Source of the DNA: an uncultured Pelagibacteraceae bacterium
GTDB taxonomy: Bacteria > Pseudomonadota > Alphaproteobacteria > Pelagibacterales > Pelagibacteraceae
DNA length: 48,823 nt
NCBI GenBank assembly: GCA_902627745.1
Contig: CACOKG010000005.1
Coordinates: 1 to 48,823, forward strand
Direction of reading: 5' to 3'
The notes under the pieces are model-generated. The model did no database searches. It was not told where the DNA came from and saw nothing but the letters and a program-made list of their open reading frames with translations. A program made the position numbers and the translations under genes. Positions 19,494-25,996 of this stretch are shown in pieces. Each line of letters starts with the position of its first letter. Within the stretch, counting starts at the first letter, position 1.

Positions 19494-20021
19494 TTAATGT
19501 CCTGGAAAATCAATTAAGTTTTCAACTTTATAACCTTTTTTTTCTAATTTGTCCGTACCATTGAGATCAAACAAATTAATAACAAAAATAAAAGCAGCAA
19601 CTTTTCCTTTTGAAACTTCAACTAACTTAGCTGCTGCCTCTGCAGTCCCCCCAGTTGCAATTAAATCATCAATAATTAACACTTTATCATTTTCATCAAT
19701 AGAATCTTTATGCACCTCTATTGTTGCAGTACCATACTCGAGTTCAAAATCTATTGAGTGAACATCAGCTGGTAATTTATTTTTCTTTCTAAGCATCACA
19801 AATGGTTTTTTTAATATATATGAAACAGCAGAGGCAAAGACAAAACCTCTTGACTCAATAGCTGCAATTTTATCAAATTTTACTTTTTTACTCCTCTCAA
19901 CTATTTGATTTATTGTTTCAGAAAATGCTTTTTCATTTTTAATTAATGTTGTTATATCTCGAAATAATATCCCTTTTTTTGGATAATCTGGAATTGATCT
20001 AATAAAATCTTTTAAATTCAT
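19494..20021 (-). CDS. apt: Adenine phosphoribosyltransferase
   Basis: IPDYPKKGILFRDIT; IESRGFVFA; VLIIDDLIATGGTAEAAAKL. Confidence 0.94.
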   Translation of the reverse strand: MNLKDFIRSIPDYPKKGILFRDITTLIKNEKAFSETINQIVERSKKVKFDKIAAIESRGFVFASAVSYILKKPFVMLRKKNKLPADVHSIDFELEYGTATIEVHKDSIDENDKVLIIDDLIATGGTAEAAAKLVEVSKGKVAAFIFVINLFDLNGTDKLEKKGYKVENLIDFPGH

Positions 20022-20062: not shown

Positions 20063-20935
20063 ATGACAATAAATAAATTAGCAATCATTGGTGGAAGTGG
20101 TTTATATGATATTGAGGAATTTAAAAATCGAGAGTTAGTTGATTTACAAACTCCCTGGGGAAAACCCTCAGATCAAATTTTAAAGACAAAATATAAAAAT
20201 AAAGAGGTTTATTTTTTACCGAGACACGGAAGGGGGCATTTTATTTCACCTTCAAAAATAAATTTTCGAGCTAATATTGATGCATTAAAGCAATTAGGTG
20301 TTTCCGACATAGTTTCTGTATCAGCTGTTGGATCTTTAAAAGAAGACCTACCACCAGGTAAATTTGTAATTGTTGATCAATTTATAGATAGAACTTTTGC
20401 AAGGAACAAAACATTTTTTGATGAGGAAATCATTGCCCATGTTTCTATGGCTCATCCAACATCAAATGGTCTTATGAATGCGTGTGAGGAAGCTATTAAA
20501 AAAGAAAAAATAGAATATCAAAGAGGTGGAACTTATGTAGTTATGGAAGGTCCACAATTTTCAACTTTAGCTGAGTCCAATCTTTACAGATCATGGAAAG
20601 CTGATGTGATTGGTATGACAAATATGCCAGAAGCTAAATTAGCTAGAGAAGCAGAAATTAGGTATGCATCTGTTTCAATGGTAACTGATTATGATTGTTG
20701 GCATCCAGATCATGAAAATGTGGATGTGCAACAAGTAATAAAAGTTCTTTTAGGAAATGCTGCAAAAGCAAAAAATATGATTAAAAATTTGATAGAAAAT
20801 TTTGAAAATCATATTGATCCTAAAGATCCAACAAACAATTGCTTGGATGTTGCTATTATTACTTCACCTGAAAAACGAACTAAAAAAACTATAGATAAAC
20901 TTAAAACAGTTGCTGGTAGAGTTTTAAATAAATGA
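20063..20935 (+). CDS. mtnP: S-methyl-5'-thioadenosine phosphorylase
   Basis: LAIIGGSGLYDIE; FLPRHGRGH; GGTYVVMEGPQFST; VIGMTNMPEAKLAREAEI. Confidence 0.93.
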   Translation: MTINKLAIIGGSGLYDIEEFKNRELVDLQTPWGKPSDQILKTKYKNKEVYFLPRHGRGHFISPSKINFRANIDALKQLGVSDIVSVSAVGSLKEDLPPGKFVIVDQFIDRTFARNKTFFDEEIIAHVSMAHPTSNGLMNACEEAIKKEKIEYQRGGTYVVMEGPQFSTLAESNLYRSWKADVIGMTNMPEAKLAREAEIRYASVSMVTDYDCWHPDHENVDVQQVIKVLLGNAAKAKNMIKNLIENFENHIDPKDPTNNCLDVAIITSPEKRTKKTIDKLKTVAGRVLNK

Positions 20936-22002
20936 GAATAGAAGGAAAAGAGTATCGTACTATTTGGTTTGAAAATAATGTTGTAAAAATCATTGATCAA
21001 ACAAAACTTCCACATCAATTTATCATAAAGGATCTAAAGACAGTTAAAGATGCAATTAATGCTATAAAAATAATGGAGGTAAGAGGGGCACCTTTGATAG
21101 GTGCTACAGCAGCTTATGGATTAGTTTTGGCAATTATTGAAAATAATGATCAATCATTTTTGAAAAAATCTGCAGATGAATTAATTAGCTCAAGACCTAC
21201 AGCAATAAATTTAAAATGGGCTGTTGATAGAATGATGAATAAATTATCAGGTTTAAATAGTGATAAAATTTTAGAAATAGCTCTTAATGAAGCAAAAGAT
21301 ATATGTGAAGAAGATATTAAATTTTGTGAAAATATAGGATTAAATGGTCTTAAAATAATAGAGGAAATTTATAATAAAAAAAAAGATACAGTTAATATAT
21401 TAACTCACTGTAATGCAGGTTGGCTTGCAACAATAAATTGGGGGACCGCAACTTCTCCAATCTATCATGCACACAAAAAAGGAATTCCTGTTCATGTATG
21501 GGCAGATGAAACTAGACCAAGAAATCAAGGAGCAAATCTTACTTCTTATGAATTAAATCAAGAAGGAATTAAGAACACAATCATTGCAGATAATACAGGT
21601 GGAATTTTGATGCAAAGAGGAGAGGTTGATATGTGTATTGTTGGAACAGACAGAACTCTTGCCAATGGAGATGTTTGTAATAAAGTTGGAACTTATCTAA
21701 AAGCCCTAGCAGCTCATGATAACAAAATTCCTTTTTATGTTGCACTACCAAGCTCAACAATTGACTGGAATATAAAAGATCATAAAGATATTCCAATTGA
21801 GGAGAGAAATTCAGAGGAATTATCTCATGTGGAAGGTTTAGATGAAAAAGGAAATGTAAAGAAAATACAAATTTATCCAAAAAAAAGTAAAGCTATGAAT
21901 TTGGCTTTTGATGTAACTCCAGCAAAATATGTTACAAGATTAATTACCGAAAAAGGCATATGTGAAGCATCAGAAAAAGGACTAAAAGAATTATTTAAAT
22001 GA
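20932..22002 (+). CDS. mtnA: Methylthioribose-1-phosphate isomerase
   Basis: VRGAPLIGATAAYGL; LTHCNAGWLAT; VWADETRPRNQGANLTSYEL; GTDRTLANGDVCNKVGTY. Confidence 0.94.
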   Translation: MRIEGKEYRTIWFENNVVKIIDQTKLPHQFIIKDLKTVKDAINAIKIMEVRGAPLIGATAAYGLVLAIIENNDQSFLKKSADELISSRPTAINLKWAVDRMMNKLSGLNSDKILEIALNEAKDICEEDIKFCENIGLNGLKIIEEIYNKKKDTVNILTHCNAGWLATINWGTATSPIYHAHKKGIPVHVWADETRPRNQGANLTSYELNQEGIKNTIIADNTGGILMQRGEVDMCIVGTDRTLANGDVCNKVGTYLKALAAHDNKIPFYVALPSSTIDWNIKDHKDIPIEERNSEELSHVEGLDEKGNVKKIQIYPKKSKAMNLAFDVTPAKYVTRLITEKGICEASEKGLKELFK

Positions 22003-22655
22003 AGAATTTAGACCAAAGAAATCAAATTATTGAGTATTCTCTAAAATTGAACTCTACAAATCTTTCACCGCTACGATCAGGAAATATATCTTTGAGAGCA
22101 GAACAAGATAATATTCAAGGTTATTTAATTACTCCATCAGGAAAAAAATATGAAACATTAAAGCCAGAAGATATTGTTTTTATGGATTTAAATGAAGAAG
22201 CAGAAAAAAACGACTCAGTGAACAAACCCTCCTCCGAATGGAGATTTCATAAAGATATTTATGTTAATAAAAAAGATGCCCAAGCAATTGTTCATGCACA
22301 TTCTCCACACGCAACAGCTGTATCTTCACACGGAAAATCTATACCTCCTTTTCATTACATGATTGCTCTTGCAGGAGGAGAAGACATTAAATGTGCTGAA
22401 TACGCTACTTTTGGGACAAAAGAACTTTCACAAAATGTAATTAAAGCTTTAGAAAATAGAAGTGCTTGTTTGATGTCTAATCACGGACAGGTTGCTTTTG
22501 GAAAAAATTTAGAGCAAGCATTTGAACTAGCACAAGAGATAGAAAATATTTGTCATCAATACACTATTGCACTAAAGTTAGGAGAGCCAAAGATTCTTTC
22601 ATTAGAGGAAATGAAAGAAGTTTTGGAAAAAGCTAAAGATTATAAAAAAGGGTAA
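21999..22655 (+). CDS. Class II aldolase (fuculose-1-phosphate aldolase-like); candidate 5-methylthioribulose-1-phosphate aldolase
   Basis: SGNISLR; VHAHSPHATA; LMSNHGQVAFGK; ATGA overlap with mtnA. Confidence 0.88.
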   Translation: MKNLDQRNQIIEYSLKLNSTNLSPLRSGNISLRAEQDNIQGYLITPSGKKYETLKPEDIVFMDLNEEAEKNDSVNKPSSEWRFHKDIYVNKKDAQAIVHAHSPHATAVSSHGKSIPPFHYMIALAGGEDIKCAEYATFGTKELSQNVIKALENRSACLMSNHGQVAFGKNLEQAFELAQEIENICHQYTIALKLGEPKILSLEEMKEVLEKAKDYKKG

Positions 22656-22656
22656 T

Positions 22657-23697
22657 ATGATAAAAGTAGGGGAGCACATTACTTTAGATATTATTGGTAC
22701 TGATAAAGAATATGATCCATCGGTTTATGAAAGAGTTATTAAACAGATTGCTAAAGTAGCTAAAGTTACAATCTTAAATATTTCAAAATATAAGTTTGAA
22801 CCGCAGGGCTTTACAATTCTTGCATTATTAGCTGAAAGTCATATCAGTTTTCATACATTTCCTGAGAAAGGAATTATAAGTTTTGACTTCTTTACTTGTG
22901 GAAAAATCAGTCCATCAGTAGCGATTGATATTGTTAAAAAAGAATTTAAGCACAAAAGAATTGTAAAAAAAGAGTTTAATAGAGATACGAGATCTCTTTA
23001 TCAAGATATTTACAGCTCCCCAGGTTTACAAAAATCATATGTTGTAAATGAAGTTTTGGAAGATTTTAAATCAAAGGTGGGTCAACACATCGAAATTTTA
23101 GAGTTAGAACAATTCGGTAAATCATTATTTATTGATGGTGAAATTCAAGTAGCTGAGTCTGATGAACATTTATACAGCTCAACATTTGTGGGTGCAGGGT
23201 TGAAGTTAAATAAAAACAATGAAAGAGCTGCAATCATTGGTGGTGGCGATGGTGGCGTTGCTAGAGAATGCATATCTAAAAAATTTAATTTTATCGATTG
23301 GTATGAGCTTGATCCTGAGGTAGTTGAAGTTTGTAATAAACATTTAGGTGACATTGGAAAAAAAGCTACAGAGAAAAATTCAGTTAAATGTGTTTGGGGA
23401 GATGCGTTTCATAGTATTAAATCAGTAAAAGACGATACATACGATCATATCTTTGTAGATTTAAATGATGATCAGTTTTGTATAGATTTGGCTGCAAAGA
23501 ATATGGACTCTTTAGTAAGAATATTAAAACCAAAGGGTGTGATCACAGCACAAGTTGGCAGCCAAGATAAAAAACCTCTTCAAGTTGAAAATTGGATGAA
23601 TGTTTTTCATCATCATTTTGGAAATACCAAATTATCTAGGGTTTATGTACCCAGTTTTGATTGTTCTTGGAATTTCTCTTCTTCAATAAATCATTAG
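22657..23697 (+). CDS. S-adenosylmethionine decarboxylase (SpeD) fused to aminopropyltransferase (SpeE/spermine synthase-like)
   Basis: N-terminus LLAESHISFHTFPE...FDFFTCG (candidate S61/H66/C81); C-terminus AAIIGGGDGGVARE SAM motif. Confidence 0.9.
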   Translation: MIKVGEHITLDIIGTDKEYDPSVYERVIKQIAKVAKVTILNISKYKFEPQGFTILALLAESHISFHTFPEKGIISFDFFTCGKISPSVAIDIVKKEFKHKRIVKKEFNRDTRSLYQDIYSSPGLQKSYVVNEVLEDFKSKVGQHIEILELEQFGKSLFIDGEIQVAESDEHLYSSTFVGAGLKLNKNNERAAIIGGGDGGVARECISKKFNFIDWYELDPEVVEVCNKHLGDIGKKATEKNSVKCVWGDAFHSIKSVKDDTYDHIFVDLNDDQFCIDLAAKNMDSLVRILKPKGVITAQVGSQDKKPLQVENWMNVFHHHFGNTKLSRVYVPSFDCSWNFSSSINH

Positions 23698-23754: not shown

Positions 23755-24585
23755 ATGATGAATATATTTAAAAAAACTATTTTTTCAGTTTTATTTTCAT
23801 TGTTAATTATTGGAAACGTCAATGCTGATAAAATTAAAATTGGAACAGAAGGTGCTTATCCTCCATGGAATTCTAAAGATGCATCAGGTAAATTAATCGG
23901 ATTTGAAGTCGAATTAGCTTACACACTTTGCAGATATATTGGACAACAATGTGAGATTGTTGAACAAGATTGGGATGGAATGATACCAGCTTTAATTATG
24001 AGAAAATTTGATGCAATTATGGCAGGTATGTCTATTACTGCAGAAAGACAAAAAGCTATTAATTTTTCACAAGGTTATGCAGATGAAGTTGCATCTTTAG
24101 CAGTTATGAAAGGTTCTGACCTTGAAGGTATGAATACTCCAGAGGGAATCAATCTTACTCTAGGTGGTTCAGGTGTTAAAAAAACTTTAAAAACTTTAAC
24201 GGGTGCACTTGCTGGTAAAACTGTTTGTACACAAACAGCAACTATTCACCAAAACTTTTTAGAATCTGGTGATGTGGGAAAAATAAATCTAAGAACTTAC
24301 AAAACTCAAGATGAAGTCAACTTAGACTTAGCATCAGGAAGATGTGATGTTGCATTAGCAGCTGCAGTTGCATTTACAGATTATGCTGAAAAATCTGGCA
24401 AACCAGTTGTTCTTGTTGGTCCAACTTTTTCAGGTGGAGCATTTGGTAATGGTGTTGGAGTTGGAATTAGAAAAGACGACACTGAATTATTAAAAGCATT
24501 TAACAAAGCAATCGAGAAGGCTAGAAAAAACGGAGACATTAGTAGAATAGCTACTAAATGGTTTGGTTTTGATGCCTCTATGTAA
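23755..24585 (+). CDS. Amino-acid ABC transporter substrate-binding protein (polar/basic amino acid type)
   Basis: Signal peptide; KIGTEGAYPPWNSKDASGKLIGFEVELA; QDWDGMIPALIMRKFDAIMAGMSIT; AAAGGAGA SD upstream. Confidence 0.9.
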   Translation: MMNIFKKTIFSVLFSLLIIGNVNADKIKIGTEGAYPPWNSKDASGKLIGFEVELAYTLCRYIGQQCEIVEQDWDGMIPALIMRKFDAIMAGMSITAERQKAINFSQGYADEVASLAVMKGSDLEGMNTPEGINLTLGGSGVKKTLKTLTGALAGKTVCTQTATIHQNFLESGDVGKINLRTYKTQDEVNLDLASGRCDVALAAAVAFTDYAEKSGKPVVLVGPTFSGGAFGNGVGVGIRKDDTELLKAFNKAIEKARKNGDISRIATKWFGFDASM

Positions 24586-24597
24586 TTAATTTTAGAT

Positions 24598-24624
24598 TTG
24601 GCGACTATAATGTATAGTCGCCAA
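24598..24624 (+). terminator. Perfect 12-bp hairpin between SBP and permease genes
   Basis: TTGGCGACTATA-ATG-TATAGTCGCCAA; no strong U tract, so attenuator/3' stabiliser also possible. Confidence 0.75.
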
Positions 24625-24629
24625 TCTAT

Positions 24630-25322
24630 ATGGAACTTCTAGCATTTGGAGATACTGGTTGGGGTGACGAATTATTTCGTGCCACTCTAATGACTATAGC
24701 TGTTTCAATTACAGCAATGATTATAGGTTTTCTTTTTGCGTTAATCTTTACTCCATTAAAATTATCTAAAAATAAATTTTTAAATTTCATAGCTAATTCT
24801 TACACAACTATAATAAGAGGTGTTCCAGAATTATTAATAATTTATCTTTTCTTTTTTGGTGGAACTGGTGCAGTTATGTTTGTTGCATCAATATTTGGTT
24901 ATAATGAATACATTGAAATTAATGCATTTTTCACAGGTGCATTTGCAATTGGAATAATTTCCGGTGCTTATTCAACTGAAGTTTTTAGGGGAGCAATCCA
25001 ATCAATTGAAAGAGGCCAGTTCGAAGCTGCCAATGTATTAGGATTAAATAAATTTGGAAAATTTTTTAAAATTATTTTACCTCAAACATTAAGATTAGCT
25101 ATTCCAAATCTGAGTAATGTTTGGCAGATAACTCTAAAAGACACTTCTCTTATTTCAGTCACAGGTTTAGTTGAAATCATGAGGCAATCTTATATTGCTG
25201 CTGGATCAACGAGGGATCCATTATTCTTTTATTCATTTGCTGCAGTTTTGTATTTACTACTTACTTTTGTGAGCATGAAATTAATTAATAGATTAGAAGT
25301 TAAATACAGCAGGGGGTACTAA
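24630..25322 (+). CDS. Amino-acid ABC transporter permease (HisQ-type)
   Basis: RGVPELLIIYLFFFG; GAYSTEVFRGAIQSIERGQFEAANVLGL. Confidence 0.92.
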   Translation: MELLAFGDTGWGDELFRATLMTIAVSITAMIIGFLFALIFTPLKLSKNKFLNFIANSYTTIIRGVPELLIIYLFFFGGTGAVMFVASIFGYNEYIEINAFFTGAFAIGIISGAYSTEVFRGAIQSIERGQFEAANVLGLNKFGKFFKIILPQTLRLAIPNLSNVWQITLKDTSLISVTGLVEIMRQSYIAAGSTRDPLFFYSFAAVLYLLLTFVSMKLINRLEVKYSRGY

Positions 25323-25996
25323 TGGATCTTGAATTAATGATTAATAGTTTCCCAAAGTTACTTAATGCTGCTGTAATAACTTTAAAACTTCTTTCAGTTT
25401 CTTTGATAATTGGATTATTCATTGGCTTATTTTTTGCAATTCTTAGATTAAATAAAAATATATTCATCAATAGATTTGCTTATGGATATTCGTATGTTTT
25501 TAGAGGTACACCACTTTTAGTACAGATATTCATTATTTATTTTGGATTAGGTCAGATTGAATATTTAAGATCGACAGTTTTATGGGTAATTTTAAAAGAA
25601 CCATATTGGTGTGCAATCATTGCTTTTGCTCTAAATACGGGTGCTTATACTTCAGAGATATTGAGATCAGCATTTCAAACCATTAAACCTGGAATAATAG
25701 AGGCAGGTAAAAGTTTGGGCATCCCAAACAAAGTAATCTTTTATAAAATTCAAATTCCTATCGCTATCAGACAATCTTTACCAGCTTATGGAAATGAAAT
25801 TATTCTTATGATGAAAGGAACTTCTTTAGCTAGTACAGTGACCATAATGGACCTTACAGGTGTTGCAAAATATATAATTTCAACAACTTTTAAACCAATT
25901 GAGGTATTTATTGTTGCTGGTGGTATTTATCTATTTATGACCTTTATAATCCATAATATGATTAAGTTTTTAGAAAAGAAATACAGATTTAATTAA
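25322..25996 (+). CDS. Amino-acid ABC transporter permease (HisM-type)
   Basis: FRGTPLLVQIFIIYFG; TGAYTSEILRSAFQTIKPGIIEAGKSLG. Confidence 0.92.
   Translation: MDLELMINSFPKLLNAAVITLKLLSVSLIIGLFIGLFFAILRLNKNIFINRFAYGYSYVFRGTPLLVQIFIIYFGLGQIEYLRSTVLWVILKEPYWCAIIAFALNTGAYTSEILRSAFQTIKPGIIEAGKSLGIPNKVIFYKIQIPIAIRQSLPAYGNEIILMMKGTSLASTVTIMDLTGVAKYIISTTFKPIEVFIVAGGIYLFMTFIIHNMIKFLEKKYRFN

Follow-up and report, generated by a model that had tools for sequence, protein, structure and literature searches.

The locus at 22657-23697 raises the question of what is made by a protein in which an AdoMet decarboxylase (AdoMetDC) and an aminopropyltransferase (APT) are joined, and whether its products extend beyond spermidine. 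The window, the whole stretch of 48,823 nucleotides analysed here, comes from a Pelagibacter (SAR11) genome that is incomplete (679 kb, 61% complete). Few cells in the ocean are as abundant as SAR11, which draw part of their nitrogen from polyamines, and a single enzyme that both decarboxylates AdoMet and makes tri- and tetraamines is of importance for that reason. An AdoMetDC-APT fusion of Ca. Pelagibacter ubique was reportedly described by Green et al. in 2011.

The preliminary description placed a SpeD and an aminopropyltransferase in one reading frame and named S61, H66 and C81 as class 1b SpeD residues, both of which are borne out by the following features.

22657..23697, + strand: speD-speE fusion (AdoMetDC class 1b plus aminopropyltransferase), 346 aa, stop included, ORF uninterrupted
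22675..22983, + strand: AdoMet decarboxylase domain PF02675, residues 7-109, 97.9 bits (cut-off 25), E 5e-28
23011..23157, + strand: Spermine_synt_N domain PF17284, residues 119-167, above the Pfam gathering threshold
23164..23673, + strand: Spermine_synth domain PF01564, residues 170-339, Pfam E 5e-23, above gathering
22834..22839, + strand: E60-S61 codons, the autocleavage site predicted from sequence, at which S61 would become pyruvoyl; invariant in 120 distinct orthologs
22852..22854, + strand: H66 codon (class 1b processing and catalysis His), invariant in 120 orthologs
22897..22899, + strand: C81 codon (class 1b catalytic Cys), invariant in 120 orthologs
23152..23166, + strand: AESDE motif, residues 166-170, with D169 and E170 invariant and E167 variable
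23239..23256, + strand: GGGDGG, residues 195-200, the published motif 2 (Asp, and Gly two downstream)
23305..23313, + strand: E217-L-D219, the published motif 3 (Glu)
23458..23472, + strand: DLNDD, residues 268-272, in which D268 aligns with the catalytic Asp173 of human spermidine synthase
23650..23670, + strand: PSFDCSW, residues 332-338, with F334 where human spermidine synthase has Tyr241

The SpeD half also passes TIGR03330, the model for B. subtilis-type class 1b AdoMetDC (100.4 bits, cut-off 75.65). Residues E60, S61, H66, C81, D169, E170, Y173 and S174 are invariant across 120 distinct SAR11 orthologs, as are D198, G200, L218, D268-D272 and P332-F334. The transferase half is divergent, since its scores fall far under the cut-offs of the speE equivalogs TIGR00417 (101 against 249.6) and PRK00811 (124 against 260). 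Relative to ordinary SpeE, DSxDP is changed to DLNDD, YHE to YSS and PTYxxG to PSFxxxW, and the protein ends 15 residues past the start of the PSF motif, with the usual C-terminal segment of about 40 aa missing. The strings QVAESDEHLY and VDLNDDQF are present as first described, but the ERDE-type and DSxDP motifs that they were thought to replace are modified instead, because D169-E170 of ERDE, Y173 (which aligns with Tyr79 of human spermidine synthase) and the catalytic Asp D268 are kept and invariant. GGGDGG (motif 2) and ELD (motif 3) match the motif pattern of spermine makers (PMC11107197).

The fusion is near-universal in the Pelagibacteraceae. It is present in 41 of the 44 near-complete genomes of the genus, orthologs with 91-99% identity are found in Pelagibacteraceae single cells, and all but one of the other genera of the family carry it, with identity down to 61%; the sister family within the order gives at best a weak match. 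The Pelagibacter fusions are monophyletic (support 99/98), and in each of 11 genomes the fusion is the sole Spermine_synth match above the Pfam cut-off. Comparison of the fusion DNA with E. coli genomes gave no match. Independent fusions occur in other Alphaproteobacteria and Pseudomonadota (L161, L162, L163, L165, L185, L187, L194, L210), in which the C-terminal segment is kept and the transferase is only 20-26% identical to that of the window. Two complete single-contig genomes of 1,308,759 and 1,456,888 bp, which we take to be those of HTCC1062 and HTCC7211, encode orthologs that are 85% and 89% identical, respectively, and ungapped over 346 aa (presumably WP_011282223 and WP_008544956). 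Both have the architecture, the length of 346 aa and all the active-site residues of the window protein.

The HTCC1062 and HTCC7211 fusions have been assayed. They yield spermidine in E. coli delta-speD, such that the AdoMetDC domain is active, they yield spermine and thermospermine in similar amounts in delta-speE and delta-speG E. coli, and they convert diaminopropane to norspermidine (PMC11107197); a 2011 characterisation of the SAR11 fusion is also cited in PMC8437039. The window gene is this already known SAR11 fusion, with activities published for its orthologs, and by analogy with these close relatives the window protein would have the same AdoMetDC activity and product range. The suggestion that products go beyond spermidine was thus correct by way of the 85-89% identical orthologs (spermine, thermospermine and norspermidine), though already published (PMC11107197). 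Overexpression in a foreign host may overstate the tetraamine output of the orthologs.

A fusion of SpeD to an ordinary spermidine synthase that yields no relevant product but spermidine would be in keeping with the single aminopropyltransferase of the genome and with the retained catalytic Asp, Tyr and DE motif, and the tree test neither rejects nor demonstrates a nesting of the long-branched SAR11 transferase with alphaproteobacterial SpeE (p-AU 0.28). We regard it as very unlikely, however, given the spermine and thermospermine produced by the 85-89% identical orthologs (PMC11107197), the scores far under the speE equivalog cut-offs, the changes at DSxDP, YHE and PTYxxG, and the loss of the C-terminal segment. 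Still more improbable is a drift of the AdoMetDC domain to arginine or ornithine decarboxylase activity; neofunctionalised SpeDs of this kind are known in pelagiphages (PMC9992855), but delta-speD cells regain spermidine when given the HTCC1062 or the HTCC7211 fusion, and the SpeD part of the window protein is 86% identical to its counterparts in both.

The fusion is the last gene of an operon with mtnP, mtnA and an aldolase gene, next to a divergently transcribed apt.

20063..20935, + strand: mtnP, an MTA phosphorylase gene that opens the operon, product MTA-consuming (PRK08931, 447 bits, cut-off 437)
20932..22002, + strand: mtnA, methylthioribose-1-phosphate isomerase (TIGR00512, 422 bits, cut-off 279), with a 4-nt overlap with mtnP
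21999..22655, + strand: class II aldolase, predicted to have a DHAP-shunt-type role, with a 4-nt overlap with mtnA and its stop 1 nt before the fusion ATG
19494..20021, - strand: apt, adenine phosphoribosyltransferase, divergent neighbour, adenine salvage

The same order of mtnP, mtnA, aldolase and fusion is found in 83 of about 100 loci, and most of the others are cut by contig ends. The three-gene module is missing from four loci (L137, L148, L155 and the HTCC1062-type L143). At the last of these, the place of the module is taken by a gene for a 174-aa relative of MTA/SAH nucleosidases, which scores below curated cut-offs (L143:7320-7844). MTA disposal beside the fusion is therefore swapped between mtnP-mtnA-aldolase (window 20063-22655 and HTCC7211-type) and a nucleosidase-like gene (HTCC1062-type), so that in these types, judging by gene content, MTA removal appears to be retained next to the MTA-producing enzyme by either of two routes. 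No acireductone dioxygenase (mtnD) was found in 11 genomes; classical methionine salvage is therefore absent, and methylthioribose-1-phosphate likely goes to a route resembling the DHAP shunt (described in PMC12632272), a role and substrate that we infer for the aldolase. We also note that polar amino acid ABC transporter genes, encoding a periplasmic binding protein related to Lys/Arg/Orn binders and two permeases, begin 57 nt downstream of the fusion (window 23755-25996). Nearly every orthologous locus of the genus has them, those of HTCC1062 and HTCC7211 included, and they are absent from some other genera.

The reading that we favour, with a probability of roughly 93%, is that the window encodes the SAR11 AdoMetDC-APT fusion, a self-processing maker of tri- and tetraamines that is the only aminopropyltransferase of the cell and whose MTA is removed by the same operon. 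The proenzyme would cut itself between E60 and S61, after which the 60-residue beta chain would remain bound and the alpha chain, with S61 converted to pyruvoyl and the entire transferase attached, would decarboxylate AdoMet. Conservation of the E60|S61 site implies that cleavage leaves the pyruvoyl chain joined to the transferase, as had been proposed. Using dcAdoMet, the attached transferase would make spermidine from putrescine, go on to form spermine and thermospermine from the spermidine, and convert diaminopropane, if present, to norspermidine. MtnP would split the MTA by-product into adenine, recycled by Apt, and methylthioribose-1-phosphate, which would pass by way of MtnA to the class II aldolase in a DHAP-shunt-like manner. 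The AdoMetDC domain would dimerise in place of the absent C-terminal segment.

Whole-cell data and a reversibility proposal for SAR11 SpeE (PMC8437039), together with the import of polyamines by SAR11 via PotABCD, raise a different possibility, namely that in the cell the enzyme chiefly runs backwards or scrambles polyamines broadly, breaking down imported spermidine and norspermidine. This is unlikely, as the fused AdoMetDC and the MTA-removing operon drive the reaction forward, biosynthetic activity has been shown directly for the orthologs, and SpeE is irreversible elsewhere, as PMC8437039 itself remarks.

The preliminary description had approached the relationship of the SAR11 fusion to spermine synthases through two motifs and through architecture. 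AESD is rejected as a link to human spermine synthase: position 167 is E in just 31 of the 120 SAR11 orthologs (A in 69, S in 15), and the likeness is not functional evidence because the assayed makers of spermine and thermospermine have ATNDE (HTCC1062) and AATDE (HTCC7211) where the window has AESDE. Nor is D-L-x specific to spermine synthase, as it is also present in the thermospermine-type enzymes of Thermus, Pyrobaculum and Medicago and in several other fusions. The architectural resemblance stands. An AlphaFold model built from a mixed alignment to which viral fusions and viral SpeD and SpeE rows contributed (pLDDT 84, pTM 0.65, against a poor pLDDT of 48 with just 30 near-identical SAR11 rows) has human spermine synthase (3c6k/3c6m) as its best full-length PDB matches over about 350-370 columns, with a domain orientation that differs (rmsd 8.4-8.9). 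Human and animal spermine synthases (3c6k) share with the SAR11 protein an AdoMetDC-like domain followed by an aminopropyltransferase, a DL motif and a short C-terminus; 15-18 residues follow PS(F/Y)xxxW in SAR11 and human spermine synthase, compared with at least 55 in all other transferases of the compared set whose C-terminus is known. The human enzyme differs, however, in that its transferase is only 23% identical, its N-terminal domain has lost AdoMetDC activity, and the second Asp is lacking (DLTA rather than DLND).

The real traits in common are therefore the two-domain architecture and the missing C-terminal dimerisation segment. The C-terminal domain contributes to dimer formation in human spermidine synthase (PMC12812037) and the dimer of spermine synthase is formed by the N-terminal domain (PMC11203672); as the C-terminal segment is missing in SAR11 as in human spermine synthase, the AdoMetDC domain has probably taken over dimerisation in the SAR11 fusion. 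Animal spermine synthase is concluded to derive from a bacterial AdoMetDC-spermine synthase fusion (PMC12803844), an origin on which the SAR11 fusion bears because both lack this segment; Pelagibacter is not mentioned in the text of that paper. The fusions of a delta-proteobacterium (MBW2649524) and a Krumholzibacteria member (MCK4773364), put forward as the kind from which the animal enzyme arose, resemble that of SAR11 in combining an active class 1b AdoMetDC with a spermine-making transferase, but produce spermine 60- to 10,000-fold over thermospermine, whereas SAR11 makes both (PMC12803844). Thermospermine-type enzymes (Thermus 1uir, Pyrobaculum 7xif, Medicago 6bq2) share with SAR11 the DL(T/A/N)D motif and PSF, PGF or PSY where PTY is usual, but have Glu in GGGEG and keep the C-terminal segment.

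Trees of the transferase domain do not fix the ancestry of the SAR11 transferase, because branches are very long and its placement shifts with taxon sampling. SAR11 and human spermine synthase lie on branches of about 3 or more changes per site; a joint clade of SAR11 and animal spermine synthase is not rejected (p-AU 0.20 and 0.34) but is not robustly recovered, and a nesting with thermospermine types is likewise not rejected (0.37 and 0.22). Dropping the viral row L234 shifts SAR11 to the thermospermine side. This row (L234:1408-2382, on a 230-kb IMG/VR contig) is an unfused aminopropyltransferase whose motifs, AESDEH, DLTEP and VPSFEAFW, lie between the SAR11/human spermine synthase and ordinary types.

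The window gene is known; phage-borne copies of the fusion are a new lead and are worth follow-up. Querying viral sequences with the host protein gave no matches, as its seed patterns were too specific; querying IMG/VR with the SpeD half instead brought out seven fusion-encoding contigs, which come from seven metagenomes and are pelagimyophage-like, closely related to Mosig.

L222:6773-7816: phage fusion copy
L223:2807-3850: phage fusion copy
L224:4758-5801: phage fusion copy
L225:563-1606: phage fusion copy
L226:463-1500: phage fusion copy
L227:1780-2817: phage fusion copy
L228:2-958: phage fusion copy, cut by the contig end

These proteins are 345-347 aa long; their identity is 59-60% to the window protein and reaches 63% to those of other SAR11. 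Wherever the contig reaches far enough, nrdA and nrdB are the immediate neighbours on either side of the gene, which in L222 and L224 shares 8 nt with nrdB; upstream of this locus is a DNA primase, and downstream of it a RuvC-like resolvase. The L222 primase and nrdB products are 87-88% identical to those of Pelagibacter phage Mosig EXVC030M, although in Mosig and HTVC008M other genes occupy the nrdA-nrdB slot. The phage copies keep S61, H66, C81, D169, Y173, D198, D268, D271 and PSFDC/W338, and dN/dS values of 0.12-0.31 between them indicate purifying selection. They group in a single clade (100/100) that falls not within the genus Pelagibacter (99/98) but among the genera of the Pelagibacteraceae, showing that the exchange is old. 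None of the GenBank phages in INPHARED has the fusion. A survey of viral polyamine genes reports separate speD/speE pairs and pelagiphage SpeD homologs that have become arginine decarboxylases (PMC9992855); the words 'fusion' and 'fused' are absent from its main text, and provisionally no earlier description of a phage-borne fusion was found in the main texts of the open literature.

A plausible scenario, which we consider probable, is that T4-like pelagiphages related to Mosig EXVC030M possess a functional copy of the SAR11 fusion, housed between nrdA and nrdB in a slot for exchangeable cargo, and that during infection of SAR11 cells it serves them to convert host putrescine to spermidine and spermine/thermospermine. 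If so, the whole step from diamine to tetraamine is a single phage gene, and SAR11 tetraamine synthesis would be placed under phage control beside ribonucleotide reductase.

Among the 80 nearest nrdB neighbours, 67 hold a member of the Mosig_00196/gp151 family in the slot and 13 hold neither. This family (Mosig_00196, HTVC008M gp151), the usual filler of the pelagimyophage nrdA-nrdB slot, has no Pfam match, and inspection by eye suggests that on two other IMG/VR contigs it also sits immediately downstream of an unfused speD-speE pair. The loci for this observation are as follows.

L229:5201-5845
L230:5361-6008
L232:2239-2886
L233:2239-2877

A different SpeD-SpeE fusion, 425 aa long and with canonical spermidine-synthase motifs, is present on a 107-kb IMG/VR contig (L231:1066-2340).
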